Assembly: GCA_020048915.1 (NCBI GenBank)
Contig: JAIFLU010000041.1
Coordinates: 1 to 64,000, forward strand
DNA from: Bacteroidota bacterium
GTDB lineage: Bacteria; Bacteroidota; Bacteroidia; Bacteroidales; JAAUTT01
Reading direction: 5' to 3'
DNA length: 64,000 nt
Shown here: in pieces, positions 3,401 to 64,000 of the stretch
How the letters are laid out: the number at the start of each line of letters is the position of its first letter
Numbering within the stretch: position 1 is the stretch's first letter
Position numbers and translations under genes: made by a program
The notes under the pieces: model-generated
What the model saw: only the letters and a program-made list of their open reading frames with translations
What the model was told of the DNA's origin: nothing
Databases searched by the model: none

Positions 3401-6400
3401 CATTTGTAAGTTTTAGCTGGTTGGTAATTTCAATATCATTTAATAAGCTAAGTCCATTGTTATTTTTTATTTCTAGAATATTGAAAGAATTAGATCCCGT
3501 AAATGAGCCTTGAATTTGTTGGGTCAGCGCACCAGCAAATACAACGGCTGCTCCGGAACCGTTTCCTGCAATAAAGTTGCCGGCAGTTCTTATTAAATTT
3601 CCTTCCAGGGTAATTTTCTTATTATTAATGTTAATAACATTAAAACTTGCCCCTCCATTAATAGTAATACTTCCATACAAATGAAAGTCATTATTAGGAA
3701 GTCGTTTATCTCCTATACCCGAGAATATTACATTATTAAGATCAATGATGTTTCCAAGTGCATCATAACTGCTGGAGCCTCCATATTCAATTGTACCTCC
3801 TATAGCAGAAAAGAAATTGTCATAATTTCCTGCAGGTAAATCGCCTTGTTCAAGGTAAATTAATCCATTGCCATTAATAATACCGAGTCGATGGCCATAA
3901 GTGGAATATAATTTAAGCTTTCCGAAAATTTCGGTTGAATACCCCGACAAATAGTTTTGAGTTACATCAACAGTATGCCCTACATTAATTCTAGCGATAG
4001 CTCCTCTTGGACCTCCGGTAATTGTTGGATCCCAAATTGGCTCATTTACCCAATCTCCTGATGTAGTTGTTTGATATAGTGGTACGGTATTAGGTATGGC
4101 AGGATTTGTTCCGGCAGTATAGTCACCGCTAATATCCGAATCATTCGCGCCGGTGAAAGGGAAATTGAGTTCAAAATTAGTCGTATTAATAGTGCCAAAT
4201 GGCTTATTCCAGTTACCAGTCCCATCATTTAATAACCTGGCAGAAATATAATCATTAATGGTATTTGAACCGGTTACTTTTACATCAGATGCTATGAACT
4301 TCATAATCGCAGTTGCAGATAAGCCAGACACCCCATTTGTCTTAAGCGACCAATAATATTGTAAAACATTATTAGGGTCTAAAACACTGGGTTGATATTC
4401 GTTTGCAGGTTTTACAGTAATACTGCCGGTACTATTGCCATTTGCGGAAATTGAGATAGTTACCGGAGTATATTTTCCGGTTGAACCCATAGGGAAAATA
4501 AATGGGGTTCCGCTTGCTCCAGCAGGAAAAACTTTACGAACACCATAATCGGAAAACGAAATATTGGTTTGAATCATATTGGTTTTAGAGAAAGGCGATG
4601 CTTGCTCAATTGTTGCATTCACTCCCAAATCCAAAAGGTTTTTACCAATATTGAGGATGCCATTTTGCATTTTAAGAGAATTGGTAATCTTTAACAAGTT
4701 TCCTACCGGGATATCAACACCGTTAATGTTATTTATACTGAGCTTGCCAAATGTGCCATTCCCGGTCAATATCTGGTTCTGAGTGCCATTCAATAGTATT
4801 CCGTCTCCACTTCCTCCATAAATATGAGTAGCGTCGTTTTGACAATCGCCTTTTACATTAATGGTATTGTTGTTATCAGTAAGTGTACCGGCGTTAAGGG
4901 CCAAATTATTTGTAATATTGAGTTGTGTAGTTCCTGCAGTTAATATTAAATTGTTTGCAGATGTTTTGATAAGGTTATAAAAATTGGTGTTTCCTGCAAT
5001 GGTTTGACTTGCCGAGGAACCACTAAAGTAAGTCGTATTGCCTTTGGGCAAAAAGGTTCCACTATTTATCAAATTCCCGTTGATAATCAGATCTAACCCA
5101 TTTGCGTCGAATATTGCATTGGCATCAATCTGCAGAAGATTGGAAACAGTTGCAGGAACAATTTGAAGTTGCGCCGTTGGATTGTTTGTACTTGCATTAT
5201 TTACCCGAATGTTTGGAATGGCAGTTTCGGAATAGATGCCAATAACCTGATTTGCGGGTGTTGAAGAATAGCCAATGTGAATAATGCCTGCTGTATTAGT
5301 ATTGCTGGTTGATGGATTAAGATAAAGCGCAGCAATTGAAGGATTAATTTGCTGGCGTGCAATATAAAGATTTCCTCCGGTCATATCAAAGGAACTTCCG
5401 GTATTTAGGACTTCGAAAACGCCTCTTGCTCCGGTAGGTGCAGAAAATTGACCAACAATTACATTTCCTCCGGATTGATTATATTTTAAGATACCTACGT
5501 TGGAAGTTAAACTTCGACGAATTTGGCTACCAACTGTTAATGTTCCGCTTGAAATAACAAGGTTGGCATTGCCGGAAGCTGAATATTCAATTAAATTGTC
5601 GCCACCACTCATATCTAATGAACCTCCGCTTAGATTTAAGAGACCGTCAAGTCCAATTCCTGAATTTCCTTTTGCGGCAGCATTTCCTTGTTTTAATTCT
5701 AATCCGGCAGTTGAAGGAATTTCAAAATTATCATTTCCACTGGTTAAGTTTAGAATTCTGGCTGCATTAGGGTTGTTGTAAATAAATGTTCCATTATTTA
5801 ATTGTAAGGCTTTTGCAACCCCAATTCCGGAAGTTGGTCCATTCAGTATGAAATCACTGTTAAACTGAGCATTTGTGGCAATGGAAGTTCCTTTATTTAC
5901 AACAATTCTATAAAGATTAGGTATTGCTCCTGATAGTACATTGAAAGTCATATTATTTGAGCCATCCAGAAAGAGGGATACCCGGTCCTGATTGGCGGCT
6001 GTCCATAATTGAAGCCCGCTTCCTGCCGAAGTTGTGTTTTGAATAATATTTCCCGAAACGTGTAATTCATGATTAATCGGCGTTGTACCTGGTGCATTTA
6101 TATGAATAGTGCCGCCGTTGTTATTCATTTTGAGATCACCATTAACAATTATTTTTCGTGCCGTTCCGGAATTAGGATATACTAATCGGCAACCACCGCC
6201 ACTATTATTTCCTCCAGAGTTGCTTTCAAACATTACCAGATTACGGCCAACGGTAATATTACCGGTTGCCCCGTTGGGGAGCAGCAGGTTAAGGTCCCCC
6301 AATAATTCAACATTTCCTGTTGTAACAATATCATTAGCAAAGGTGAAATTTATATCGTTGCTTCCCCAACCATCATTTGAAATATACAAATTAGGAAACA

Positions 6401-9400
6401 AAGGGGCGGTTTTTGTAACAATTCTATTATCTGTAAAGTTTTCGTAAATAACATAGGAAGAATCTTCCCTTGCAAAATCTCCAATATCCATTATTGTATA
6501 ATCAGGATCGCTGTTTCGGTTCCAAAATAAGCCTTCGCCCTTAACCAATTTAGCAATTAATACTCCCGATGTTCCAACCGCATTAATACACAACGTTGGT
6601 CTGAATTGAAAATTAGACCGATAGACGCGTGGAACAGGATTCCCTAAACCATCGGTCATCTTAGTGAATACAACCTCAGCTACCTGACGGGTGTCATTAA
6701 GGAATATTCCATGAGGCTGGCCTCTGAGTGCAGCTCCTCTATTAGTGTCGGTCCAAGGAATCCATCCGATAACAGCAACGTCGCCATTTCCTGGAACAGC
6801 TCCTGCCACAGGTTGGCGACTATCGTGAGGTTCGTATATTGGGTTTAGTTTGTCACTTCTGGTCCAGGTATTGGTATTATCCCAAGGTGCTTGTTGCTGA
6901 TCGTCCCGGGTGTAATAAATATAGACACTGCCACTAAAACGATTTGCTACGCCAGCTGTATAGTTGGCATTTTCCAGAGGGACACCGGCAATAGCTGGAC
7001 TAAACAACCCATTTGTGCTGGTTCCGTTTATTGTAATTGCCCGGGTATTGGTTGTACCTATTGTTTTGATAATATCATTATCAGTTAATAGTTCGTTCGA
7101 TCGGGTGTAAGGATTTACATCGAGTACCTTCCCTGGAACATATGTTGCTTCATTTGCAGCTCCTGTAGGTAAATCAAGATTAGCTATGGTGGTTTGATTT
7201 CTGTAGTAAAAACGATATGCAACCTTAGGTAGTGAGGTAAAACCTGAATGACTTACCCTCCAATAGTGTTGCAGAACTTCCCCTCCTGTTAAATTGGTTG
7301 TTTGTAAAGAACCCATAATTGGACGGATAGTTACATAGCCATCGTCACTGAAGTTGTTCACAACCATTTGAGCAGGCCTGAAATACAATGTGGTGCCGGC
7401 ATTAGGAGTAAAACCAATGGGGAATGTTAATGGCCCCGTATTGTTAATCATATTTGGCTGATTCTCGGTGGAACTATTTGCCTTAATTTTTAAAGTTAAA
7501 CCTCCGTCGCTGGCTTTTCCATTGGTATATATTAAAGAATTTGCAGTATAATTATTGTTTGCCACTTTAAGGTAACTCGAAGTGGATGTATTTTCGAAAA
7601 GCCCGGTTTCCATATTCCACATGTCGTCCACCTTTAAGTTGTATCCTTTCAGGTAGATAAGCCCTTTAAGATATTCCATGCGCTCGATGTAAACATCACT
7701 CGTAAGTGTAATTTTTGTTGGCGGAGTAACATTCATCTGTACATTACCAAAAATAGCATTTTGAGTGGTTGTAATAGTTAAGGCCGGATTGTCGGCAAAT
7801 TGTATCTGAGCTTTACTGGGTGTTGTTCCCGAATACCATGTTCCCATCCGGTCGTTATTCACAATACTTCCCCAGGTGCGAATTGTATACATTCCCTGAT
7901 TTAATGTTCCCGATAACACAGATGCATTGCCATTAATATCCAGGGCAATTGATTCACTTAGTCTAGCAGCCGAGGAAGCAGAACGAAGCTCATACCCATG
8001 GGTTCGGTTAATCTCAAAATTACCTACTTCCAATTCCGAAGTTGCATTTCCCCAGTAAATTGTATCAATACCAGAGGTGCCTGCTGTTTGATTAAAATGA
8101 GTTGTATTTGTATAGGTTGGCTGATTTGCTATTGAGTTGTAGGGTGAAGTCCCGCCAAAAAAAGGAATATATTGAACTCCGTTTTCTATATAAAATGAGC
8201 CACCTATAAATACATCATTCACATTGGTTGCGCTTGTTACAGGTTTGAAACTTATTGCGGGGTAACTTGCACCGCCAGATTCTTTCCCCCAAATCTTGAA
8301 ATCATTTAAAACAATTAATGGCTGAGCAGCAAGATTTATATCGGTTGGTCCGACATTAGAACCAGGTTCTAATGAAAAATTACGAGCAACTGTAGTCGAA
8401 TTTTTGAAATGCAGGTTCCAAAAAGGTGCCCTTGATGTTATCAGGAAATTTTGTGCTGAATTATTTGTTTCGCAAATTACCGTACCTCCGGTTACTTTCA
8501 CGTTTTCAGGATCGGAATTAATAAAGATACTTCCTTTTCCATTCGATGTAAATATATGGAGAGTTCCCCCGGACATATTAAATACACTGCTCGGATATGT
8601 GAGGCAAAAAACATAAAAATCGGTGTTTGTAGTTCCTCCGAGTAAATTTACAGTTCCGTCTGTCTGAACAAACCCGCCAATATTTGAAGCTCCAAGTTCT
8701 GAGGTTCTTAATTGATTAATATTAACTGTTCCTCCATTTACATATAAAGTTCCATTATTTCGAAGGGTAATTCCACTGTTTATTTTTGCTTCAAGTGTAC
8801 CTGAGTTGATTTTAATTTTACCATAAGGTACAATTGCTGTTCCTGTATTTTTGGCTACAAATCCGCCATCAACTAATAATTGTGCCGCTTCTGAAATATT
8901 ATAATTGCTATTGTTTGATAAAATGGGGATATTAATATTATTTCCAATTCGTACAGTTCCTTTTAATAAACCGAGCGCATTATTATTTACGGCAAGTTGT
9001 GCTACCGAGCCATGGTCTTCGGCGGCAAATCCAAATAAATTAAAGTTAGCTCCAGATGTGGCATCAATGTTTAGAATATAGGTATCATCAGACCCTTTGT
9101 CTATCTCAATCCTATAAAAATTTGTAACGCCGTTGCAGAGGATATTTTGGTTTTTTGAAGGATTTAAAAAATTAGCATCTACAATACCATCCGTTGCTTC
9201 TGCTGAATAATTCGCAACGGTTCGGTTTGTAAATTTTATTTCGCCATTGTTTGTTAAATTTCCATAGAAATTGAATTGGTGCCTTGCGTTTCCTGTCCCT
9301 GTATGAAGTTTTCCACTGGAAGTTAAAGATACATCGCCATTTACAGTGATATTTATGCTTGTAGTCGCAGTATTATTGATTTTGAAGATTCCATTCTGGA

Positions 9401-11381
9401 TAATTAAATTTCCGCCAATATTATAATTTTTTAGTAATGTCAATATGTTGTTAGTTGCATCCATATTGATTATCACATTATAGAAGTATCGTGCAATATT
9501 TAGGTCTCGAGTCAGGCCATAAAATTCAACAGTACCTTCTCCTTGTCCTTTGGTAATAAAATCCGTTGCATTTCCTGTCGGGAAATTATCAGCAGCGAGC
9601 CGAATTATACCTGTTCCATTTATGATGGTGAAATTATGACCTGTTGTATTTTTTAAATCCAAACGACCACTCACAGTAAGTTTTGCATTTGTTTTATTGT
9701 CATTTCCAGATTGAATTGTTACAGTTCTTCCTGAAAGAATTACCACTTCGTCAAATGCACTAGTTGGTGATGTGGAAGGAGTTATATTTGTTGGATTATT
9801 AAATTGAGCACCAGATGGGTCTAAGGTCCAGGTTAAGGGATTGTCCCAATCTCCGCTAATCATGGAGTAGAATATTCTTTTATTTTGCACAGATGCTGAC
9901 CATGTTGCATTTAGGTTTGAAGCAGTAGATGAGTAAATTGGATTTGATCCGGTAGGACTCATGCCTCCAGGATTGGTCCATGCTCCCGGGTTAAAAAAAA
10001 TATCGTAATCACTCGCAGATGCTGAAGCATTTACATCAGCAGCTACATATGTAAACCGAATGTCCGAAACCAAAGGTTGCGTTATATTATTTGTTGAAGT
10101 TACCCAATATCTGTTTAATGGGTTCACTCCGGGCATTCCAATTGCTGCCGCTGCAACAGTCCGCACTTTAATGGTTCCAGGTACTGTAATGCCGGTTGGG
10201 GTAATACTGGCAATTTGCATAGGAGTATAGGAGGTTCCTGTGCCTATAGGATATATAATTGCAAATGATGCGTTTGTTGTACCTTGCTTTACCAATGAGC
10301 CTGTACCATTGGTTATAATCATATGCGTATTGTTAAATGTTCCCGAAACGGGATTTAAGATAGTGAGGTCATTATTTCCAAGGGTCAGGTTTCCATTGGT
10401 GAGCGTTAAAGTGCCATTAATAGTAGAATTACTATTTAATATTACTCCATTAGCGTTGTTTAGTGTCAGATTATTTAATGCAATAACGCTTGAAGGAATT
10501 GAAATCCCACTTGAAGTTCCCCCGAATATTAGATTTGACGAAGATGTTGTACTTAGATTGGAAGGTATACCAGCAATGGCGGGACCATTTAGTGTGAGTG
10601 TATTTGCTCCAACAGCCAATGTGCCTGAGGTTAAGTTAAGAGTGTTATTAACAATCGTAGAACCCAAAAGAGTTTTAGTGCCATTTCCTGAAATGGTTAA
10701 GTTGTTGTAAGTGGCTGCAACAATATTTTGCGGGCCAGTACCGCTGTATAGAACTGTACTCCCGGCATTATTTGCGGTAAAAGTGCCCCCATTTGAAAAT
10801 GAGCCTGCGATTGTTAGCGTTTCATTTGCTCCCAGATTTACAGTAACATTTGCAGTACTGCTTATAGTTCCATCTATTATTGTTGTAGTGTTGATGTTTT
10901 GAAAAGTAAGATTCACAGCATTACCTGCTGAGCCATCACCAAGTGTAAGAGTGTTTCCTGCTCCAATCGAAAGAGCCGACGTTGTATTTGTATTATTGAT
11001 GGTTATGGTTCTTGCAGTACCATTGGTTACAAATGAAACATTCGCAGAAATAGTAAGTGAGTTCAGAATAATATCTGGCACTCTTAAAATATTCGCATTA
11101 ATAGGTATGATTACGTCATCTCCATCAGCAGGGGCAATACCACCTGCCCAATTGTTAACATTAGTCCATCTGTTGTTACCATTCCCATTAGTCCAGGTTC
11201 TTGTTGCGCCAAAAGCTGAAAGACTTATAAATAATGTGATTAAAAATGAAAATATTAAACGCATTGCCATGGGAGATAATATTTTATGAAAAAATAAATT
11301 CAATTTAGGAAGCTTTTTCCCTATTCTGTTTTTCTCTTTATTTCGAATAATAAAGGTGTTGAAAAAAATATGATGGTGCAT
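453..11381 (-). CDS. Giant secreted adhesin-like multidomain protein
   Basis: This codes for 3,642 residues of low-complexity Asn/Thr/Ser/Gly-rich sequence. A hydrophobic signal segment ending in SAFGA (about residues 40-57) is followed at about residue 60 by a module rich in 'W.n..NW..G..P..gDdViIp' features. Related module starts with a 'sGdW...W' signature recur near residues 507, 1500 and 2440. Between them are many 'LTLNNG'-like strand repeats suggesting beta-helical or filamentous structure. From about residue 2840 the protein is a chain of PKD/Ig-like repeats ('SYLWxxxxGAT...', 'GTYTVTVTNASGC'). Such proteins are typically cell-surface adhesins or biofilm proteins in Bacteroidota. The start is uncertain. 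The ATG at 11381 has an A-rich leader typical of the phylum and gives a long basic n-region; ATG at 11270 would start just before the hydrophobic core. The C-terminus stops abruptly after a 'TVTVVDLPSSG' linker with no T9SS sorting domain. Function is inferred from architecture only. Confidence 0.85.
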   Translation of the reverse strand: MHHHIFFNTFIIRNKEKNRIGKKLPKLNLFFHKILSPMAMRLIFSFLITLFISLSAFGATRTWTNGNGNNRWTNVNNWAGGIAPADGDDVIIPINANILRVPDIILNSLTISANVSFVTNGTARTITINNTNTTSALSIGAGNTLTLGDGSAGNAVNLTFQNINTTTIIDGTISSTANVTVNLGANETLTIAGSFSNGGTFTANNAGSTVLYSGTGPQNIVAATYNNLTISGNGTKTLLGSTIVNNTLNLTSGTLAVGANTLTLNGPAIAGIPSNLSTTSSSNLIFGGTSSGISIPSSVIALNNLTLNNANGVILNSNSTINGTLTLTNGNLTLGNNDLTILNPVSGTFNNTHMIITNGTGSLVKQGTTNASFAIIYPIGTGTSYTPMQIASITPTGITVPGTIKVRTVAAAAIGMPGVNPLNRYWVTSTNNITQPLVSDIRFTYVAADVNASASASDYDIFFNPGAWTNPGGMSPTGSNPIYSSTASNLNATWSASVQNKRIFYSMISGDWDNPLTWTLDPSGAQFNNPTNITPSTSPTSAFDEVVILSGRTVTIQSGNDNKTNAKLTVSGRLDLKNTTGHNFTIINGTGIIRLAADNFPTGNATDFITKGQGEGTVEFYGLTRDLNIARYFYNVIINMDATNNILTLLKNYNIGGNLIIQNGIFKINNTATTSINITVNGDVSLTSSGKLHTGTGNARHQFNFYGNLTNNGEIKFTNRTVANYSAEATDGIVDANFLNPSKNQNILCNGVTNFYRIEIDKGSDDTYILNIDATSGANFNLFGFAAEDHGSVAQLAVNNNALGLLKGTVRIGNNINIPILSNNSNYNISEAAQLLVDGGFVAKNTGTAIVPYGKIKINSGTLEAKINSGITLRNNGTLYVNGGTVNINQLRTSELGASNIGGFVQTDGTVNLLGGTTNTDFYVFCLTYPSSVFNMSGGTLHIFTSNGKGSIFINSDPENVKVTGGTVICETNNSAQNFLITSRAPFWNLHFKNSTTVARNFSLEPGSNVGPTDINLAAQPLIVLNDFKIWGKESGGASYPAISFKPVTSATNVNDVFIGGSFYIENGVQYIPFFGGTSPYNSIANQPTYTNTTHFNQTAGTSGIDTIYWGNATSELEVGNFEINRTHGYELRSASSAARLSESIALDINGNASVLSGTLNQGMYTIRTWGSIVNNDRMGTWYSGTTPSKAQIQFADNPALTITTTQNAIFGNVQMNVTPPTKITLTSDVYIERMEYLKGLIYLKGYNLKVDDMWNMETGLFENTSTSSYLKVANNNYTANSLIYTNGKASDGGLTLKIKANSSTENQPNMINNTGPLTFPIGFTPNAGTTLYFRPAQMVVNNFSDDGYVTIRPIMGSLQTTNLTGGEVLQHYWRVSHSGFTSLPKVAYRFYYRNQTTIANLDLPTGAANEATYVPGKVLDVNPYTRSNELLTDNDIIKTIGTTNTRAITINGTSTNGLFSPAIAGVPLENANYTAGVANRFSGSVYIYYTRDDQQQAPWDNTNTWTRSDKLNPIYEPHDSRQPVAGAVPGNGDVAVIGWIPWTDTNRGAALRGQPHGIFLNDTRQVAEVVFTKMTDGLGNPVPRVYRSNFQFRPTLCINAVGTSGVLIAKLVKGEGLFWNRNSDPDYTIMDIGDFAREDSSYVIYENFTDNRIVTKTAPLFPNLYISNDGWGSNDINFTFANDIVTTGNVELLGDLNLLLPNGATGNITVGRNLVMFESNSGGNNSGGGCRLVYPNSGTARKIIVNGDLKMNNNGGTIHINAPGTTPINHELHVSGNIIQNTTSAGSGLQLWTAANQDRVSLFLDGSNNMTFNVLSGAIPNLYRIVVNKGTSIATNAQFNSDFILNGPTSGIGVAKALQLNNGTFIYNNPNAARILNLTSGNDNFEIPSTAGLELKQGNAAAKGNSGIGLDGLLNLSGGSLDMSGGDNLIEYSASGNANLVISSGTLTVGSQIRRSLTSNVGILKYNQSGGNVIVGQFSAPTGARGVFEVLNTGSSFDMTGGNLYIARQQINPSIAALYLNPSTSNTNTAGIIHIGYSSTPANQVIGIYSETAIPNIRVNNASTNNPTAQLQIVPATVSNLLQIDANAIFDANGLDLIINGNLINSGTFLPKGNTTYFSGSSASQTIAGNTNFYNLIKTSANNLILTAGTTQLNITNNLALNAGTLTDNNNTINVKGDCQNDATHIYGGSGDGILLNGTQNQILTGNGTFGKLSINNINGVDIPVGNLLKITNSLKMQNGILNIGKNLLDLGVNATIEQASPFSKTNMIQTNISFSDYGVRKVFPAGASGTPFIFPMGSTGKYTPVTISISANGNSTGSITVKPANEYQPSVLDPNNVLQYYWSLKTNGVSGLSATAIMKFIASDVKVTGSNTINDYISARLLNDGTGNWNKPFGTINTTNFELNFPFTGANDSDISGDYTAGTNPAIPNTVPLYQTTTSGDWVNEPIWDPTITGGPRGAIARINVGHTVDVTQNYLSGYSTEIFGKLKLYSTYGHRLGIINGNGLIYLEQGDLPAGNYDNFFSAIGGTIEYGGSSSYDALGNIIDLNNVIFSGIGDKRLPNNDFHLYGSITINGGASFNVININNKKITLEGNLIRTAGNFIAGNGSGAAVVFAGALTQQIQGSFTGSNSFNILEIKNNNGLSLLNDIEITNQLKLTNGLVNTNGNTLRIKYNADVTPIIGLSTSFVNGTLTKELMNSNSFTFPIGDNNGNLGAAQLVNISGTSGIQDWNATYHYANPSSAGYDATNFGAPISQVCKTEYWDIQGPSGAKTSLSFYLDGSSDVASAVSNINNLRVVGWNSTTSKWEVVGGNVSVAGTSTSGKVTTTSSVNMDNYRYFTLASVSPIISGTATITNSDFNLCSGSTADIVVALTGSGPWVITYIAGASTITSPSINTSPYNITVSPTTTTTYTLTSVTAGGVPGSLVGNIDTKVTVSPSPTVLLNSTCPGGTGNTLIFTASSGLTSYNFRVNGTTVQNSAANTYTTSTLGNGQSVDVIATNSSNCSTTSSSIVNPLPYGAGTISGSISVCNSSSGVGYSVPAITNATGYVWTLPTGATIASGTNTNSITVNFGTSSGNITVRGTNACGGGTISANFPVTVSSAGAVGAAGSITGASPVCKGSYNNNYTVPAITNATSYLWMYSGTGATNHADGSVINATGVSTVGNSISIDFSTTATIGNLTVKGVGCGTGATSSNYPIAMNTPPTATAGSNSPLCSGQTLNLTGSGTGVATLSYSWSGPNTYSTTTQNPTISNAAAINSGTYTLTVTDGNNCSQIATADVTINPMPVASAGSDILSCSGATGISMTGASASGSYSGTPTWTGTGGTWVQNPDPALATFTPSTSSGSITATLSLAGTSGCGNSTATRLITWGTAPSITSQPANPAAACAGTGTANFSVSATGSGLTYQWQEFVSSWNNVTNSATYGGSATATLTVTNPTFAMNGNKYRCVVSNACTPAATSNGLATLTVNNPPSAAIAITETSGTTNNDGILCSGASATLTASGGTGYAWSSGETTAAISKNIVGTYTVTVTNASGCIASTSQSLTVNALPAATIAVAETSGASDNDGTICRSHSITLTASGGNNYSWSSGQNTAIISVSPVNTLNYIVIVTDLNNCSNSANQTVTVVDLPSSGEFYRKPNN

Positions 11382-38999: not shown

Positions 39000-39908
39000 C
39001 TAACCAATCTTTGCTTTATGGCATCCATAACTTTTCAATTGTTCAACCCATTTTTCTGCAACTTCGGACGATACTGTTTTCAATTCAGCAAGCGTTTCAT
39101 CGAGGCCAATGCTGATTCGTTTGCTATTGCCCATAGTATGATAAGGTAATATTTCGATGCCTTTTAATTTGGGATACTTTTTATCCATATCGCAAATCGC
39201 TCTAAAATGTAACTCGTTATCATTTACTCCAGGAATTATGGGACAACGGAGTATAATTGGAACTGCAAAATGATATGCGGTATCCAAGTTTTTAAGAATC
39301 CGCTCGTTGGATACTCCTGTATATCTCTTATGATCAGCTAATCCGGTAACTTTGTAATCAAAAAGAAAAATATCAACAAAAGGCATAATTTGGCTAAACT
39401 TTTGGCTTGTTATTTCGCCCGATGTTTCTACGCAGGTATTCACACCCAATTCCTTGCACTTTTTCAGTATTTCCATTGAAAAGTCAAATTGCAACATAGG
39501 CTCTCCCCCGCTCAATGTCATTCCGCCACCTGATTTTTTATAGAAATCAAAATCGGCCATTACTTCATGCAATACTTCACCGGAAGTCATTTCCCGGCCA
39601 ACCATCCGCAGCCCGCTATCATTGCATACCTCAACACATTTTCCACAAAGCGTACATTTATCGAAATCAATGGAATGATTGCCATCCGCAAAACGATGTA
39701 CATTTTCCCCGCATACTTCTGAACATTTTTTACATTTTGAGCATTTATCGAAATGAAAAAACAGCTGAGGTTTTGCGATTCCTGACTCCGGGTTATGACA
39801 CCAAAGACAATTCAGCGGACATCCCTTCAGAAATATTGTAGTTCTGATTCCCGGCCCATCGTGCAACGATGCCCGCTGAATGTCAAAAACAATTGCCTTT
39901 TCGCTCAT
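39000..39908 (-). CDS. Glycyl-radical enzyme activating enzyme (radical SAM)
   Basis: This 302-residue radical SAM protein has the SAM-cluster motif CxxxCxxC at C30, C34 and C37 (GCPLNCLWCHNPE), preceded by the activase signature RASLHDGPGIRT. A ferredoxin-like insert carries two more 4Fe-4S clusters (C56, C59, C62, C66 and C85, C88, C91, C95). This is the architecture of activases of glycyl radical eliminases, whereas PFL activase lacks the insert. 'GGGMTLSGGEPMLQ' is the SAM-binding GGE motif. It abstracts hydrogen from the glycine of the partner enzyme, encoded 15 bases upstream, under anoxic conditions. It is not a sulfatase-maturing enzyme; those have different cluster spacing and length. 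Confidence 0.93.
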   Translation of the reverse strand: MSEKAIVFDIQRASLHDGPGIRTTIFLKGCPLNCLWCHNPESGIAKPQLFFHFDKCSKCKKCSEVCGENVHRFADGNHSIDFDKCTLCGKCVEVCNDSGLRMVGREMTSGEVLHEVMADFDFYKKSGGGMTLSGGEPMLQFDFSMEILKKCKELGVNTCVETSGEITSQKFSQIMPFVDIFLFDYKVTGLADHKRYTGVSNERILKNLDTAYHFAVPIILRCPIIPGVNDNELHFRAICDMDKKYPKLKGIEILPYHTMGNSKRISIGLDETLAELKTVSSEVAEKWVEQLKSYGCHKAKIG

Positions 39909-39923
39909 TTTAAAGGTCGATGT

Positions 39924-42185
39924 TTAATAAGTTACCCGGCTAAGGATTTCCATTTGTACATCCCTGGGCAAATCGATATAGCGAGAACTAAAGCCTCCAA
40001 TCCTGACAAAAAGATCCTTGTAGTTTTCGGGTTCTGTCAGCGCTTTTTCCAGATCGCCCCGGTTGATCACCGTAATCATAGCCTGTGCACCACCTTTTTT
40101 GAAATAGGTATCCAGCAGTACTTCAAACTGTGGACGGCTAGTGATAAAGAAATCACGGCCAAAACGCATATTCTGCACCGAACCGGCGTGTATATAGTGA
40201 CTAGGTTTTACCAATGAATTGATAAGCGCCGTAATTCCTTTTTTGTCATTACCACCAGCCGGAGTATTGGCATTAGCCATTTCGCGCCCGGCTTTACGGC
40301 CATCGGCAGAAGCCCCCACCCACCGGCCAAGTATTGTGTTTTGTTTGTTGTTGATAAGCACATTCAGGTACCAGTCCAGGTTGGTCCGTTCGCGCTGATC
40401 GCGGATAGTATTGCACATATAATTGTGTAATTCTACCATCATATCATCGGCATAAGCGTCGTCGTTACCGTATTTCGGACACGCTTTCAGCATTTTATGC
40501 TCCTTTTCGTAACCCACAAAATTGTGGTTCAGCGCCTCAATAAGCCGTTCTGCCGAAATCAGTTTCTCATCGTAAACCATTTTTTTAATAGCTGTCAAAC
40601 TATCGGCAGCATTTACACTGCCAAACGATTCCAGCGAACCTCCCAGATATTTGATGCCACCTGAAAAAATCCCTTTACCACGAGCAATACAATCGTCGTA
40701 CAACATACTAAGATACAGGTAAGGAGCTTGTTTCCCCGATTCCACATATTCCAGCTCTTCGTGGTCGGCGAGTATTTCAATAAAGAAAGCCAGTTGCTTT
40801 TTAAAGGCATCGAAGAATTCTTCAAAAGTTTCAAATTCATTCAGATCTCCGGTGGGCAGTCCTAATCGTTTTCCGGTAATCTGGTCAACACCATCGCGAA
40901 GTGTAATATCCAATGCTTTTAATACGTTCAACGAACCACTTGGCGTACCAAAACCCATGTGGTCAATTACAATTTCGCCGCAACCAAGGGGCATATATTG
41001 TTCAGCATCTTCAACCGGAACATCGTGGGCAGCAGCTACGCCAGGCACAAGCACATCGTCGTTATAAAGCAACGGAAAGGTATGCCCGTCACCAATGAGG
41101 GAAATTGATTTTTCCATTAAGCCGGGGTTCATACCTTCGTAAAAACGAAGGGTGGTCTGGGGCAAAATGGCGCGACCATAAGTACACATGGTTTCGAGTA
41201 CCAGGAATGCAAACCGGTCGGCATTTTCCTCGTTTCTGCGGCCTTTGCCACCAATGATAACCCGGCCGTCTACATCGCGGAAGAGTTCGTTAATCAATCG
41301 CCAGTAGGAATGCATTAACGATAAAGCCTCTTCTTCGGTAATTATTCCGTTATCAATATCATGTACATAAAAATCTCCCAGGTAAACATCTACCCTTCCC
41401 AATTCCAACGAACCACAAATCAACGTATAAAGCCATGATAACTGCAGTGCTTCGTAAAACGATTCGGGTTTGGCAACTGCATTTTTCTTTAAAACCTCGG
41501 CAAGTTGGAGAAGCTCTTCTTTGCGTTTTGAGTCAGCACAAATATGGGCTTTCTGCATTGCCTGCATTTCGTAATGGCGGCAAGAATCGACAAATACATC
41601 AAGGGCAATAAGCATACCTTCATACAGCTTCCAATCTCCGCCGGAATCCTTTGACTTGTCCCTATAGCCTGCAATTTCGGTTTTCAGGCCAGGTATTCCA
41701 AGTCGCAGTAATTTATCATAATCCACAAACACGCCTGCCATACGATAAATCGGATTGGCAATCAGCGGTTTAAAATTATATGGAAGTGACACAATTTCGT
41801 CGCGAAACAATACAGGTAGCATTTTGGGAGTAAAAGCTGCTTCCACTTTAGCCTTTGAGGTTTCCTTTTTCCAGAAATGCAGCATTTCGTGCACGCCATC
41901 CCGTTGTTCCATTGGAATATTGCCTCTTTCAATGGCCTCGATAATTTTTTGTTCATGGCAAAAATATCCGTAAGCAGCGCCCCCTGGGGCATTGTGTGGA
42001 CTGAAGCCTACCCAGCCCCAGAAGGTGCGACCGGCTAACCTGTCTTTTTCCTGAATTTCGTTTAGTACCGCCGGAAATTGCGCCTGATGACACCGGGCTT
42101 CGCGGATGGCGGTGTGTTCTTTTATGTTTTTCCGGTATGCTTCCGTGAAATTCAATTCCATTGAGAAATCGTCTATCTTTTGCAT
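39924..42185 (-). CDS. Glycyl radical enzyme of unknown substrate (eliminase class)
   Basis: This 753-residue cytoplasmic protein of the PFL/glycyl-radical superfamily carries the thiyl-radical Cys402 in 'QYMPLGCGEI'. The following Glu404 matches the CxE pair of the dehydratase/lyase group; formate lyases have Cys-Cys. The glycyl radical is predicted at Gly731 in RIGGFSSRY, 22 residues from the C-terminus. The usual CxE motifs I know are GCTE and GCVE; GCGE is unfamiliar and suggests a separate clade. The length is shorter than choline lyase and similar to glycerol dehydratase-type enzymes. There are no microcompartment shell or aldehyde dehydrogenase genes nearby. It sits between its activase and GH130 in a PUL, so it probably acts on a sugar-derived molecule released from the glycan. 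The substrate is not known. Confidence 0.9.
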   Translation of the reverse strand: MQKIDDFSMELNFTEAYRKNIKEHTAIREARCHQAQFPAVLNEIQEKDRLAGRTFWGWVGFSPHNAPGGAAYGYFCHEQKIIEAIERGNIPMEQRDGVHEMLHFWKKETSKAKVEAAFTPKMLPVLFRDEIVSLPYNFKPLIANPIYRMAGVFVDYDKLLRLGIPGLKTEIAGYRDKSKDSGGDWKLYEGMLIALDVFVDSCRHYEMQAMQKAHICADSKRKEELLQLAEVLKKNAVAKPESFYEALQLSWLYTLICGSLELGRVDVYLGDFYVHDIDNGIITEEEALSLMHSYWRLINELFRDVDGRVIIGGKGRRNEENADRFAFLVLETMCTYGRAILPQTTLRFYEGMNPGLMEKSISLIGDGHTFPLLYNDDVLVPGVAAAHDVPVEDAEQYMPLGCGEIVIDHMGFGTPSGSLNVLKALDITLRDGVDQITGKRLGLPTGDLNEFETFEEFFDAFKKQLAFFIEILADHEELEYVESGKQAPYLYLSMLYDDCIARGKGIFSGGIKYLGGSLESFGSVNAADSLTAIKKMVYDEKLISAERLIEALNHNFVGYEKEHKMLKACPKYGNDDAYADDMMVELHNYMCNTIRDQRERTNLDWYLNVLINNKQNTILGRWVGASADGRKAGREMANANTPAGGNDKKGITALINSLVKPSHYIHAGSVQNMRFGRDFFITSRPQFEVLLDTYFKKGGAQAMITVINRGDLEKALTEPENYKDLFVRIGGFSSRYIDLPRDVQMEILSRVTY

Positions 42186-42291: not shown

Positions 42292-43299
42292 TCATGAATT
42301 TTCTTTTATATAAGTTATAATTTCATCGATGTTTGCATAAGCAATGGCGGTGTATGTATCAGCAGCTCCATAATATATGGCTAAGCGGCCTGTGGCTCCA
42401 TCGGCAAGTACGCCTGTCGGGAATACCACATTTCCTACGTAACCGGCTGTTTCGTATATTTTTTCGGGTGTCATTAACGGAAATTTGCAACGATAAAGGA
42501 CTTTCCATGGTTCGTTAATATCCAGCAATGCGGCACCCATGCTGTACACAAAACTATCGCAGGTGTCGGTAACTCCATGATAGAGCAACAACCACCCTTC
42601 ACTGGTTTCGATAGGAATAGGTCCCGGACCTATTTTCACCCTCTCCCATTTGCCGGGTCCACGCGTAAATACAATGCGGTGTTTCCCCCAATAAGTCAGG
42701 TCAGGGCTTTCGCTGAAGAATATATCGCCATAGTCCACGGCCATTCCTTTACCCATGGGTCGGCTCAGCATGGCATATTTGCCGTTAATCTTTTTCGGAA
42801 ATAGCACGCCATTGCGGTTATAAGGCATAAACGCATTTTCGAGCTGGTGGAAAGTTTTAAAATCTCTCGTCCAAGCCTGGCCAATTGTCGCGCCGTAATA
42901 AGCATTACACCACGAAATGTAATACATATCTTCGATTCTGGTTACTCGTGGATCATAAGCCACTGTAATTTTTCCCAATGCAGAATCGGGGCAGATAAAA
43001 TTGATTGGTTCTTCTTCAATAGTCCATTTTATCCCATCCGGACTTGTACCCAGATGCAGGTTCGGATCCATGGAGAGCGAATCGACTCGGAATACTCCAA
43101 TAAAACCATCGCCCCAGGGTATAACGCAACTGTTGAATACACTGCGTGCTTTAGGCATAGGATGCAAATCGATGACAGGGTTACTGCTGTGACGCCAAAC
43201 AATTTCTTTGCAATCAGCAGGTTTTGGCTCCCATGGCATATTGGGGAGGGCATCAGCAATGAGCGCTGTCTTTTTAATCGTATTATTTTCAGTTATCAT
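42292..43299 (-). CDS. GH130 beta-mannoside phosphorylase/hydrolase
   Basis: This 335-residue protein has a five-bladed propeller fold and no signal peptide, so it is cytoplasmic. Family motifs include 'VAYDPRVT' with the catalytic Asp116, 'MPYNRNGVLFPKKINGKYAMLSRP' and 'KIGPGPIPIETSEGWLLLYHGV'. GH130 enzymes phosphorolyse or hydrolyse beta-mannosides, often giving mannose-1-phosphate from mannosyl-glucose, mannosyl-GlcNAc or beta-1,2-mannosides. In the 'LSRP' segment the His often seen in phosphorylases ('LHRP') is Ser, so phosphorylase versus hydrolase cannot be decided by eye. It lies between the symporter and glycyl radical enzyme genes, which suggests it processes an imported mannoside. 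It is flanked by two short palindromes. Confidence 0.9.
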   Translation of the reverse strand: MITENNTIKKTALIADALPNMPWEPKPADCKEIVWRHSSNPVIDLHPMPKARSVFNSCVIPWGDGFIGVFRVDSLSMDPNLHLGTSPDGIKWTIEEEPINFICPDSALGKITVAYDPRVTRIEDMYYISWCNAYYGATIGQAWTRDFKTFHQLENAFMPYNRNGVLFPKKINGKYAMLSRPMGKGMAVDYGDIFFSESPDLTYWGKHRIVFTRGPGKWERVKIGPGPIPIETSEGWLLLYHGVTDTCDSFVYSMGAALLDINEPWKVLYRCKFPLMTPEKIYETAGYVGNVVFPTGVLADGATGRLAIYYGAADTYTAIAYANIDEIITYIKENS

Positions 43300-43397: not shown

Positions 43398-45596
43398 CTA
43401 ACTTCCCAGACTAACGAAAAACACCAGTAGCGCCACAACACTCACAACGGCAATGGACGATACAATTACCCCAACCAGGTCTTCCCTGTTCCACCGGCGA
43501 AATTCCCAGTTTGAATTCGGGAAAATCTTCAGATGATTGAAATGGGTTGGGTTAGCACGGGTAAGAGCCATTGCGCGGTCGTCGTCTTCGTGAGTACCAA
43601 CAACAGGTGTAAGCATTTTGCCATAAAACTGGTTCAATGCTTCTTCATCTTCTCTCTTTGTAAACCAGGCCACCAGCATCAAAACCAGGAATGGAACTAT
43701 AATGCGGAACAGAAAAGTAAGTGTTTCATTCAGTGAATAAGAATTTTTGGATAAATCCCAACCGAGACAATCCAAAGCAATCAATTCCACTTTCAAATAG
43801 CCTTTGCCGGTAGGTTGCTGATCAGGAAACACAATACCCTCACTCCAGAAAACTGATTTTTTAGGCAACAAAACCTTTTTCTCAAACTGCTCACCAGGCT
43901 TAAGCGCCTTAGGACGTTCGCCTTCGGCTTTTCCGGCGAGTTTTAACTTGTACCAACTATCGATTGCCCTGTCGCGTTCATGAACATCCATTTCCCTGGC
44001 TTGGTAGGTCCGGCTTACCGGTATTGCTTCGGTTGTTTTGCATAAATATTCCGAAGTGCGCACTCCCGGAACAGCAGGAAGTCCAAATGGCAACACTACC
44101 GTTGCAATAAACATCACCACCATCGAAGCCCATGCACCGGCACGGTTTGCCCTGCGCCAAAGCATTCCCAGCCAGAAAGCCGCGGCAAGGATACTGTTGA
44201 ACATCATTGTCATTTTAAAAAGTTCGAACAAACCTTTGGATTGTGTGGCAATGTAAGCGGAAATTAACATGTACAATGCACTAAATACCCGACCTGCCCA
44301 GATGTAATGAGTCTCGGAACAATTTGGACGAAACGGGCGGTACAGATTATTGGTAATCAGAGCTGAAGCCGTAAGCATAAAAGCAGATTTGGAAGCCATC
44401 AGTGCTGCAATAAGGCAGGCAATCATCAGGCCAACCAGACCCATATTGAGAGGACCCAACAAATCGCGCGTGGCATGGCCCCAAACATAGTCAGGATCGG
44501 AGATTGTTCCGCCGTAAAGAACCACAGTCATCAGCGCCACTAGGCCCCACATTACACTCGAATACCGTTTTAGCAACATCCCCGAAACAAAACCATAGCG
44601 GGCAGTATAATCATCCTTTGCTGAACCACATGCAGTCATCTGATTTGCCTGAACAGCGGTAGCAAAAATGACCATGATAGAAAAACCCGCGATCCAATAC
44701 CAGGAAAATTCAATCAGGCTCGGCGATCCCCATAATTCCAGAAACGAAGCGGGTAATACGTTGTGCATGGTCGAGAAGGAACCCAATACCCCCTCAGCGC
44801 CAAATTGCAGATTAATTTTGGCCATTGCGAAAGGGATTAGCAAAATAGAGAGTAAAATAATAAACATCCCCTGAACCAGATCGACCATGAATGCCGCTGC
44901 AAGCCCGCCAATGCTGGCATACAACAATGTAACCAGGGCAACAACTATAATTAGCCAATTTTCATTCACATACGAATATTCTTTCTTTGGATTTAGCTCC
45001 TGCAATTCTACCAAACGCGACTGCTGACCGGCAGAAAGTAAAGCAAAATCGGCAGCTTCCAATTTCTCGCGCTCCACAGCTTTGTTATATTCCGCACGTT
45101 CCACTATGCTATATTCTGCTAAAGGTTTCGATGCAATTGCCGATACCGTTTTCGACATAGCCACTAAGCCAATGGCGGCTATCAACACGAAATATATCGT
45201 TTGGCACACGGCATAAAAAGCAGCCATCCGTTTAGATCGGTAGCGTTCTTCAAAAAAATCGCCAAGGGTAAGTAAACGTAAGCGACGGTACCAGATGGAT
45301 GTCATCCAGAAGACGGGCAGGTTTACCAGTCCACCAGCCAACATAGCCCAGATTCCCGATGCACCGTTAGAATTAACCATAGTGGTGGTAGTGGTAACGT
45401 TTTCAACCGAAGTTGCCTGTCCAAATGCGGCGAAAGTCTGAATTAATTTACCGAAACGCCGCCCCGCCATAAAATAATCTTCACGGTTTTTCACCAAACG
45501 AGCGGCACGGATAGCTATATAAACAATAGCCACAAAATAGACAACGACCACTGCAATGTCGATGAATGATAAACCCCAGAATGTATTATTAGTCAT
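43398..45596 (-). CDS. Sodium/solute symporter (SSS family)
   Basis: This 732-residue inner-membrane transporter has about 13-14 transmembrane helices. The N-terminal helices have SSS features: 'VVYFVAIVYIAIRAARLVKNREDYFMAGRRFGKLI' and 'QATSVENVTTTTTMVNSNGASGIW'. A hydrophilic loop lies between early helices (about residues 150-205). A larger charged segment of about 110 residues (about 530-640) precedes the last helices, and a soluble tail follows. SSS members carry sugars, sialic acid, organic acids or amino acids with sodium. In this PUL it is the only inner-membrane importer visible, so it is the likely route for the product fed to GH130 and the glycyl radical enzyme. Substrate is inferred only. 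Confidence 0.9.
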   Translation of the reverse strand: MTNNTFWGLSFIDIAVVVVYFVAIVYIAIRAARLVKNREDYFMAGRRFGKLIQTFAAFGQATSVENVTTTTTMVNSNGASGIWAMLAGGLVNLPVFWMTSIWYRRLRLLTLGDFFEERYRSKRMAAFYAVCQTIYFVLIAAIGLVAMSKTVSAIASKPLAEYSIVERAEYNKAVEREKLEAADFALLSAGQQSRLVELQELNPKKEYSYVNENWLIIVVALVTLLYASIGGLAAAFMVDLVQGMFIILLSILLIPFAMAKINLQFGAEGVLGSFSTMHNVLPASFLELWGSPSLIEFSWYWIAGFSIMVIFATAVQANQMTACGSAKDDYTARYGFVSGMLLKRYSSVMWGLVALMTVVLYGGTISDPDYVWGHATRDLLGPLNMGLVGLMIACLIAALMASKSAFMLTASALITNNLYRPFRPNCSETHYIWAGRVFSALYMLISAYIATQSKGLFELFKMTMMFNSILAAAFWLGMLWRRANRAGAWASMVVMFIATVVLPFGLPAVPGVRTSEYLCKTTEAIPVSRTYQAREMDVHERDRAIDSWYKLKLAGKAEGERPKALKPGEQFEKKVLLPKKSVFWSEGIVFPDQQPTGKGYLKVELIALDCLGWDLSKNSYSLNETLTFLFRIIVPFLVLMLVAWFTKREDEEALNQFYGKMLTPVVGTHEDDDRAMALTRANPTHFNHLKIFPNSNWEFRRWNREDLVGVIVSSIAVVSVVALLVFFVSLGS

Positions 45597-45624: not shown

Positions 45625-47070
45625 TCACCAGTTATCTGTCCTGAACGGAGCTACCGGCAGGCCCGACAAACTGAAAATACTAGCTTCTACATAGTTTTTA
45701 TATCCATATCGCACTGATACAGGATTAGGTACTTTGTCGCTCCACACCACCAAACGGGTGGTGGAGGTTTCAATTTCGGCATTGGCAGGATGGAAAACCC
45801 GATCCTCGCCGGCTATTTCAAATCCCTTTAATGCAGTCCACATGGGATAAATCCCATTGACAGCATTTTTAAAATCTATGTAAATTTTTTCGCCTTTTTT
45901 CTCCATTGCTTTATAAACAGGCGGAGCATATCCAAAACCTTTCCGGCCGTAGGTAGCGCCTAAAGCCCATAATGCCAGCCGTTCACCAACAGTTTCTTTA
46001 TCAGCAGGGTGAATAGAAACCGGGTTTCCAATATCCATAGTAGTTACCATGCCGGAATTGGGAATGTCGGTCATATTTTGAAGTTGGATTTCCCGTAAAA
46101 TAGCTGCCGAAGTGCTATCGACGCCTTCGTACTTAAAAGGGGCAATCTGCACATAATAAAACGGAAACTCCCCAATATTCCATTTTGCGCGTAAATCGTT
46201 GACAAAAGCGGGCATCAGTTTTCCGTATAAGTCAGCATTTTTGCGGTTGCTTTCGCCCTGATACCATAAAAATCCTTTGATGGTGAAATTCGTTAGAGGT
46301 GCTATTTTGGCATTATACAAAACACAAGGGGTTGCTTGCGGCTTTTTAACTTCAGCATCATTGTCCAGGATAGATGTATTTATTTCTTTAAAAGGTTCTA
46401 TTGCTTCCCGACTCATCCAGGCCTCGACAACCGAGCCGCCCCACGATGAAACAATTATACCAACAGGAACATTTAACACTTCCTGAACATATTTAGCAAA
46501 ATAATAAGCAGCTGCACTGACATTCACTACATTTTCCGAATTATTTTCGAGCCATTCTCCCTGGCAATCAGTTTGAGGAGTTTTATTGAATTGTCTCACC
46601 CAATTTCCGTTTTTCGAATCGGTGGTGTACATGCGGATGGGCACTTTCGGATTTGCTCTGGCAATGATATTATTGCTCCCTTTTACCGGTTGCCTGTCGA
46701 ACCCGCGCATAGGCATTTCCATGTTTGATTGTCCGGAGCAAAACCAAATTTCTCCGATAAGAATGTTATCCAATATAAGGGCTTCACCATCCGATATGGT
46801 TATCTGATAAGGGCCTCCAGCCTGAGGTGTGCTAATCCTGAGTAACCACGAGCCATTGCTGTCAGCAATTGTTGTATAGGACTTTTTGTCCCATGAGGTT
46901 TTTACTTTAATTGTTGCATTTCCGGCTGACCAACCCCATATTTTTACTGATGTTTGCTGTTGTAAAACCATATTATCGCCCAGAATACCGGGTAAATTCA
47001 CTTTTGCATGAAGATTTGCTACCGATAATAATGAAACCAGAATAATCGTTTTCCAATAGTGAGCTTTCAT
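45625..47070 (-). CDS. SASA-family carbohydrate acetylesterase (sialate O-acetylesterase-like)
   Basis: This 481-residue secreted protein has a signal peptide ending near LHAK. The SGNH/SASA catalytic block 'WFCSGQSNMEMPMRGF' has the nucleophile Ser115, 'GIIVSSWGGSVVEAWMS' provides the oxyanion Gly, and 'FLWYQGESN' is the third conserved block. An N-terminal beta-sandwich ('VNLPGILGDNMVLQQQ') is typical of this group. It should remove O-acetyl groups from sugars. In this locus it probably strips acetyl groups that block glycosidases or sulfatases. It is 28 bases upstream of the symporter gene, in the same transcript. Confidence 0.9.
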   Translation of the reverse strand: MKAHYWKTIILVSLLSVANLHAKVNLPGILGDNMVLQQQTSVKIWGWSAGNATIKVKTSWDKKSYTTIADSNGSWLLRISTPQAGGPYQITISDGEALILDNILIGEIWFCSGQSNMEMPMRGFDRQPVKGSNNIIARANPKVPIRMYTTDSKNGNWVRQFNKTPQTDCQGEWLENNSENVVNVSAAAYYFAKYVQEVLNVPVGIIVSSWGGSVVEAWMSREAIEPFKEINTSILDNDAEVKKPQATPCVLYNAKIAPLTNFTIKGFLWYQGESNRKNADLYGKLMPAFVNDLRAKWNIGEFPFYYVQIAPFKYEGVDSTSAAILREIQLQNMTDIPNSGMVTTMDIGNPVSIHPADKETVGERLALWALGATYGRKGFGYAPPVYKAMEKKGEKIYIDFKNAVNGIYPMWTALKGFEIAGEDRVFHPANAEIETSTTRLVVWSDKVPNPVSVRYGYKNYVEASIFSLSGLPVAPFRTDNW

Positions 47071-62987: not shown

Positions 62988-64000
62988 TTACCATTGCAAG
63001 TTTTGCTTTAGCAACGGATTACTGACTAATTCACCGCCAGGTATACCGAAATAGTAAAATTTGGTGGCAAAACTAATTCCACTGGCAGCTCTTTCTGCAA
63101 CTCGAGCATCGTAAATATATTTCCCCACGGGGTTACCTGCAGGATTAAGGGTTGCACCTTTAGCAAAAAGGAACGGGCTTAGCATTCTTCGTCTGTAATT
63201 TAATATTTGAGCATCGGCTGTAAACCAACGACGAATGTCCCAATAAAGTTTATGCTCAAATGCCAGTTCTTTATAGCGCTCAACCCGCACAAGCTGCAAA
63301 CCCCGGGTTGGGGCAGCTACAAATGATTTAGGCCCGGTTCCCATGGCCAAACCCGCGTCGGATGATAGTTCTGCTGGGCTTGTCAGTAATGTTGCTCCGG
63401 CCCGATTGCGAATCAGGTTTATTTGGTCGAAAGCATCGGTTTGCATATCAACACCCCCATAATTGGCAACGCCATTCTGCGCTAATTCCAAGGCAGCTTC
63501 GGCACGGTTTAATATAACTTCAGCCAAACGAATGTCTATCCAACTTTGAAAAGATGAATGCAACTTTGTTAAGGAAGGTGTTAAGGTCAGATCGAGCCAT
63601 TTTCTTCCATGAAAACCAGTTATAGTAGTCGTGGTACCTCCGGATGTACCCCATGGCCCATCCATTCCATTTTTCTTAAGCTTTACACCAGTTGATGTTT
63701 CTAAAGGAATTTGAACATATACTCCTTCAGTAGTTGTTAATACATTATTCTTAAACCATGTATTTGAAGCATAGGCGGTTGTTGTTACACCATCATCCTT
63801 TACAAATTTCTGAATTGGCGTTGAAAAATCTATTGCTTCTTTAATTATCCCTTTTCTGATGTCAAGTTCAATTGTTTTATAAGTGTTACCCGGAATTAAA
63901 ATACTTGCTTTTAACCGGGGTTCGGCATTGGCATATAAAGCCTGGGGGCCATCGTAAACAATATAATTGTTGCTGGCATCAACAGTAGCAATTCTTCCTG
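62988..64000 (-). CDS. SusD/RagB family glycan-binding protein (5' end outside window)
   Basis: The frame is open from the right edge (64000) to the stop at 62988, giving about 337 C-terminal residues. No start is present; the first in-frame ATG in the window, at 63665, is internal. C-terminal SusD motifs are clear: 'WIDIRLAEVILNRAEAALEL', 'QINLIRNRAGATLL' and 'LVRVERYKELAFEHKLYWDIRRWF', followed by the short C-terminal segment 'LVSNPLLKQNLQW'. SusD is the lid of the SusCD outer-membrane transporter and binds the oligosaccharide. The SusC partner and any regulator should lie beyond the right edge. This anchors the cluster as a genuine PUL. Confidence 0.92.
   Translation of the reverse strand, partial: GRIATVDASNNYIVYDGPQALYANAEPRLKASILIPGNTYKTIELDIRKGIIKEAIDFSTPIQKFVKDDGVTTTAYASNTWFKNNVLTTTEGVYVQIPLETSTGVKLKKNGMDGPWGTSGGTTTTITGFHGRKWLDLTLTPSLTKLHSSFQSWIDIRLAEVILNRAEAALELAQNGVANYGGVDMQTDAFDQINLIRNRAGATLLTSPAELSSDAGLAMGTGPKSFVAAPTRGLQLVRVERYKELAFEHKLYWDIRRWFTADAQILNYRRRMLSPFLFAKGATLNPAGNPVGKYIYDARVAERAASGISFATKFYYFGIPGGELVSNPLLKQNLQW

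Follow-up and report, generated by a model that had tools for sequence, protein, structure and literature searches.

Our analysis of 64,000 nucleotides of a Bacteroidota contig (JAIFLU010000041.1; the whole stretch is hereafter called the window) identifies a glycyl radical enzyme (GRE) of a deep, uncharacterised subfamily within a known kind of enzyme, recognizable by the active-site motif GCGE. Tentatively, and with slightly less than even confidence, we read this subfamily as cleaving a saccharide C-O bond in β-mannoside catabolism.

The GRE of the window and its remoteness from known enzymes

The GRE gene (39924-42185, minus strand) is a complete open reading frame with an ATG start that encodes 753 amino acids, and its assignment to the GCGE clade draws on the reading frame, motif, Pfam matches, alignment and tree. 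Residues 401-404 read GCGE (codons at 40974-40985, minus strand), giving Cys402-Gly403-Glu404; the radical glycine is Gly731, in a RIGGFSSRY segment whose RIGGF starts at residue 728. Both GRE domains score above their Pfam cut-offs (PFL-like PF02901, 376 bits; Gly_radical PF01228, 55.7 bits), Gly731 and Cys402 are invariant in the clade, and an activase gene lies nearby: the protein is a member of the GRE superfamily. GRE structures match its AlphaFold model over the full length, the match being to eliminases and best to glycerol dehydratase (1r8w, TM 0.83); with a mean pLDDT of 74, and values below 50 in loops 409-416 and 729-733, the model is too weak for pocket work. The gene is the sole Gly_radical match in the source genome assembly (92% complete) and is under purifying selection (dN 0.07-0.11; dS saturated; dN/dS about 0.03 where computable).

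Profile comparison places the window GRE below every NCBIfam equivalog cut-off: the HypD profile gives 304 bits where 1100 are required, and the PFL2-3 subfamily profile 317 where 678 are required. HypD, CutC, sulfopropanediol dehydratase, HPAD and PFL were each considered as identities and rejected, the protein coming near none of their equivalog cut-offs. Its closest solved sequences (HypD, glycerol dehydratase and N-methyl-hydroxyproline dehydratase) share about 24-25% identity with it and score at most 258 bits, whereas E. coli YbiW reaches about 350 bits or higher with 28 solved GRE sequences, a hydroxyphenylacetate decarboxylase included; the window GRE is thus more remote from known enzymes than many of these are among themselves. 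HypD, the best sequence match (258 bits), belongs to the eliminase class, but has GCVE and other pocket residues and falls into a separate clade with 100/100 support. The glycerol dehydratase of Clostridium butyricum (1r8w) and the propanediol dehydratases (5i2a, 9rco) have in common with the window GRE the barrel fold (TM 0.83), the CxE motif, the radical glycine and a partner activase; they differ in sequence (about 24% identity), in having GCVE for GCGE, and in having AGY for GGF.

A distinct clade marked by GCGE

The unusual motif pointed out in the preliminary description is real and is common to all the relatives that we aligned (35 sequences at 34-89% identity, from named genome contigs and other genomes): position 403 is Gly in 35/35, Cys402 and Glu404 are likewise invariant (35/35), as in the CxE of GRE eliminases, and position 730 is Gly in every aligned member that reaches the C-terminus. 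Three more members (L108-L110) have the same Gly403 and Gly730 pattern. The middle residue of the motif in the compared GREs outside the clade is Val, Ile, Leu, Gln or Trp; the preliminary description had named Val or Thr for characterised enzymes, and the compared characterised eliminases have Val or Ile. Similarly, the glycine before the radical glycine is present as described, but it substitutes for the usual Ala (RVAGY to RIGGF) and is not an additional residue. Nor is xGG exclusive to the clade: a Chloroflexota GRE that lies outside it (L017, 7365-9890) has a VGGF radical loop together with GCVT in place of CxE, and represents another uncharacterised type.

In a tree built without the motif columns, which included glycerol dehydratase, propanediol dehydratases, HypD, YbiW, PflD and other GREs, the GCGE sequences form a single clade (100/100 support) to which none of the characterised eliminases in the tree belongs; the clade was recovered again with extra sequences and with PflB as outgroup. 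The clade marked by GCGE and xGG that had been proposed from the window alone therefore exists and contains no characterised enzyme, and no characterised clade with GCGE, with which it might have clustered, was found among the characterised GREs in the tree. In the PflB-outgroup tree, whose root is uncertain because PflB is a long branch, the stem of the GCGE clade measures 1.69 changes per site, while those of the HypD group and the diol dehydratases measure 0.57 and 0.32; a stem of this length points to a sizeable gap in functional knowledge of GREs. In the mainly openly accessible literature on GREs in glycan and sugar contexts, we found no description of the clade.

Carriers of the clade occur in Bacteroidales, another Bacteroidota class, Bacillota (Petrocella), the phylum of the Lentisphaerae genome L018 (Verrucomicrobiota-like) and the phylum of L010. 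Their distribution is sparse (2/295 genomes of the order; 6/82 in the phylum of L010), a pattern suggestive of frequent loss or transfer. Among 398 sampled Bacillota genomes, Petrocella alone carries the clade. Within the clade, one subclade (L088-L093) adjoins GH16 genes and has SPSLLDS in place of FGTPSG after the motif; judged by these altered residues, its substrate is probably different. Another member (L060, G638 contig 51, 1-1961, minus strand), whose gene is truncated where the contig stops, begins with MNNQSRRRFLKQSIMASSLAFVPGTS, which resembles a twin-arginine export signal; no such signal was seen in the other clade members inspected. Export would be a highly uncommon property for a GRE.

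Predicted active site

Every clade member retains the equivalents of glycerol dehydratase Cys433 and Glu435. The clade lacks, however, the set His164, His281, Ser282 and Asp447, which bind the substrate in the published crystal structure of glycerol dehydratase: His164 is a gap in 35/35 members, His281 is deleted in 35/35, Ser282 is deleted or replaced by His, and Asp447 is Pro or Leu. Also missing, relative to the diol dehydratases, is a segment of about 12 residues between strands 2 and 3 (window INELFRDVDGRVIIGG vs. LNDINKVRDEISTKHFGGYPMYQNLIVGG), the region in which HypD contacts its substrate through Ser334 and Asp339 (PMC7077986). In turn, the clade has polar residues of its own: Arg308 (35/35), Asn613 and Tyr253, together with Gln343 and His666, which have few exceptions. 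The preliminary description had suggested an open active site and had traced it to the two glycines. An opened site would fit the three deletions, at positions that hold the substrate in glycerol dehydratase, and they are its best support; the two glycines alone would be weak evidence.

Gene neighbourhood in the window

The GRE is the fourth of five co-directional genes on the minus strand, separated by gaps of 28, 98, 106 and 15 bp. The run comprises a SASA-family carbohydrate esterase (45625-47070; Pfam), 28 bp upstream of the symporter gene and possibly in the same operon in this genome; a sodium:solute symporter of the SSF family (43398-45596; Pfam); a GH130 β-mannoside phosphorylase (42292-43299; PF04041, 219.5 bits against a cut-off of 26); the GRE; and, 15 bp downstream of it, the radical SAM GRE-activating enzyme (39000-39908; TIGR02494, 325 bits against a cut-off of 174). 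The GH130 protein resembles the β-1,4-mannoside phosphorylases UhgbMP (a mannosyl-chitobiose phosphorylase; 4udg, 409 bits) and TM1225 (408 bits), its nearest solved relatives.

Around these genes, positions 27980-62042 form a dense carbohydrate locus with six sulfatase-type genes, three GH92 α-mannosidases, a DUF5010/CBM35 protein and an α-1,3-glucanase-like β-helix protein, followed by a SusD-like tail at 62988-63998; its content suggests breakdown of a sulfated mannose-rich glycan. Elsewhere in the window, a repetitive open reading frame of 3642 amino acids (453-11381, minus strand) is probably a large secreted protein.

Gene neighbourhood across the clade

An activase gene lies near the GRE in 32/32 clade loci. 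In eight further Bacteroidales loci the GRE likewise has symporter and GH130 genes beside it, in the order SSS-GH130-GRE-AE. In G345, the GRE and its activase lie 4.8 kb from a separate GH130 gene that itself adjoins a gene for a GPH-type transporter; GH2, GH94 and GH5 genes are found in the vicinity. In two genomes of another phylum (G1515 and G1535), a GPH symporter, the GRE, the activase, a β-helix protein and a cellobiose 2-epimerase homologue follow one another on one strand; after this run comes a mannosylglucose phosphorylase-type GH130 in G1515 and, by family search, in G1535 too, and then a sulfatase. In L109, a locus with this set of genes (GPH symporter, GRE, activase, β-helix protein and 2-epimerase homologue), the mannosylglucose phosphorylase scores 572 bits to 3was. 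Transporter, epimerase and phosphorylase in L109 are thus of the same families as those of the β-mannobiose pathway (cellobiose 2-epimerase and GH130 mannosylglucose phosphorylase), a pathway that differs in being without a radical enzyme. Overall, GH130 genes lie at most 8 kb from the GRE in three separate lineages, where 0.16 are expected (P = 6e-4, with gene counts from family search), the test being a rough one: the 8-kb limit and the choice of lineages were post hoc, and GH130 genes occur in clusters with other carbohydrate genes.

Other neighbours include GH16 (6 loci), GH5 (2), GH92 (7), AraC-type regulators (12), aldo-keto reductases (6 loci) and aldolases (3: DeoC in L060 and L086, a class II aldolase in L087). 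No obvious carbohydrase stands directly beside the GRE in the Petrocella, L010 and L083-L085 loci, and in the clade loci compared no single downstream enzyme common to all lineages was found. In some Bacteroidales, Exo_endo_phos, calcineurin-like and alkaline phosphatase genes stand beside the symporter-GH130-GRE block (L001, 2402-4720; L002 and L008, about 6906-7972), hinting at a phosphorylated glycan. These phosphatases prompted us to consider inositol or another phospho-glycan as the substrate, a candidate that we set aside, as the phosphatases differ between loci.

Discussion

From motif and gene context we infer the elimination class, the sugar substrate and the pathway order of the window GRE. 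The CxE motif, common to GRE eliminases, whose Glu contacts a substrate hydroxyl (PMC7077986), together with the nearby activase, points to a radical elimination; the recurring link to β-mannoside importers and phosphorylases points to an intracellular saccharide as substrate, so that the sugar-like substrate of the preliminary description is favoured by GH130 and importer context. In the proposed pathway, the symporter would import a β-mannosyl saccharide, which GH130 would phosphorolyse to mannose-1-phosphate and an aglycone sugar, and the GRE would act on one of the released hexose units or on the saccharide itself. The activase would generate the radical on Gly731, from where it would pass to Cys402 as a thiyl radical; this would abstract hydrogen from a hydroxyl-bearing carbon while Glu404 would accept the hydroxyl proton; and the resulting ketyl radical would eject the C-O group next to it, either as water or as a glycosyl oxygen, to yield a deoxy-keto sugar that could then be reduced or undergo aldol cleavage.

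As far as we are aware, the known breakdown of β-mannobiose by importer, 2-epimerase and GH130 needs no radical enzyme. If our reading is right, the GRE would therefore serve an unusual saccharide unit, or would turn a hexose into a deoxy-keto sugar, possibly providing an electron sink together with the aldo-keto reductases of some loci. The same consideration also weighs against our reading: co-regulation, or another aglycone, may account for the GH130 linkage. A bolder form of our reading, which we consider improbable, has the clade act by radical chemistry on sugars or oligosaccharides that carry no modification, breaking a glycosidic or hydroxyl C-O bond in them directly; the opened pocket would then hold a mono- or disaccharide.

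The strongest competitor, unlikely in our estimate yet more probable than that bolder form, is a non-carbohydrate substrate or another GRE reaction (C-N or C-S lysis, or decarboxylation), the carbohydrate genes being incidental. It is kept alive by the loci in which the carbohydrase link fails (L010, L083, L084, L085 and Petrocella); the carrier genomes are moreover rich in carbohydrases and sulfatases, such that chance neighbours are possible, and an acidic substrate, bound via Arg308, would likewise be compatible with the polar residues of the clade. Chance neighbourhood, however, has to contend with GH130, GH16, GH5 and 2-epimerase genes directly adjacent to the GRE on the same strand in several separate lineages, and with GH130 being commoner than expected. 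An ordinary pyruvate formate-lyase or hydroxyproline dehydratase, which the generic Pfam name PFL-like and the top PDB sequence match (HypD) might suggest, is hardly credible, being already contradicted by motif and tree: pyruvate formate-lyase needs two adjacent cysteines (ACCV at the aligned site of PflB), where the window GRE has Gly401-Cys402 followed by Gly, and HypD is far away in identity (about 25%) and in equivalog score.

Two further alternatives take known eliminases as their model. YbiW and PflD are likewise CxE GREs; they open anhydroglucitol-6-phosphate and anhydromannitol-6-phosphate, and thus provide precedent for radical opening of sugar-like rings (PMC12441222; PDB titles), making similar chemistry conceivable for the clade: a 1,5-anhydrohexitol or its phosphate would become a 1-deoxyketose, then be split by an aldolase such as those near some clade GREs. 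We regard this as rather remote, since the two enzymes have GCIE and GCVE, keep the His164 position and the His281 loop that the clade lacks, and group with the glycerol and propanediol dehydratases, the window GRE falling into a separate clade (100/100); their context is PTS and aldolase rather than GH130, the neighbours of the window GRE include no recognisable PTS or hexitol kinase, and aldolases are not conserved across the clade. Marginally less probable still is a dehydratase of small diols, acting as an electron sink on glycerol or 1,2-propanediol from sugar fermentation: it would agree with the best fold match and with the aldo-keto reductases, but the diol-binding residues are absent or changed clade-wide, no equivalog cut-off is reached, no microcompartment genes were recognised within the window, and it would offer no explanation for the GH130 and importer linkage.

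In conclusion, the clade has a simple signature (GCGE, xGG, Arg308 and a missing His281 loop), and offers a testable substrate class as well as carriers with near-complete genomes. If direct cleavage of unmodified sugars were true, anaerobic glycan breakdown would have a radical route alongside hydrolysis and phosphorolysis. Should the substrate indeed be a sugar, mannoside breakdown in anaerobic bacteria would include an oxygen-sensitive radical step, carried out by enzymes that present annotation would place in the general PFL/glycerol dehydratase family.
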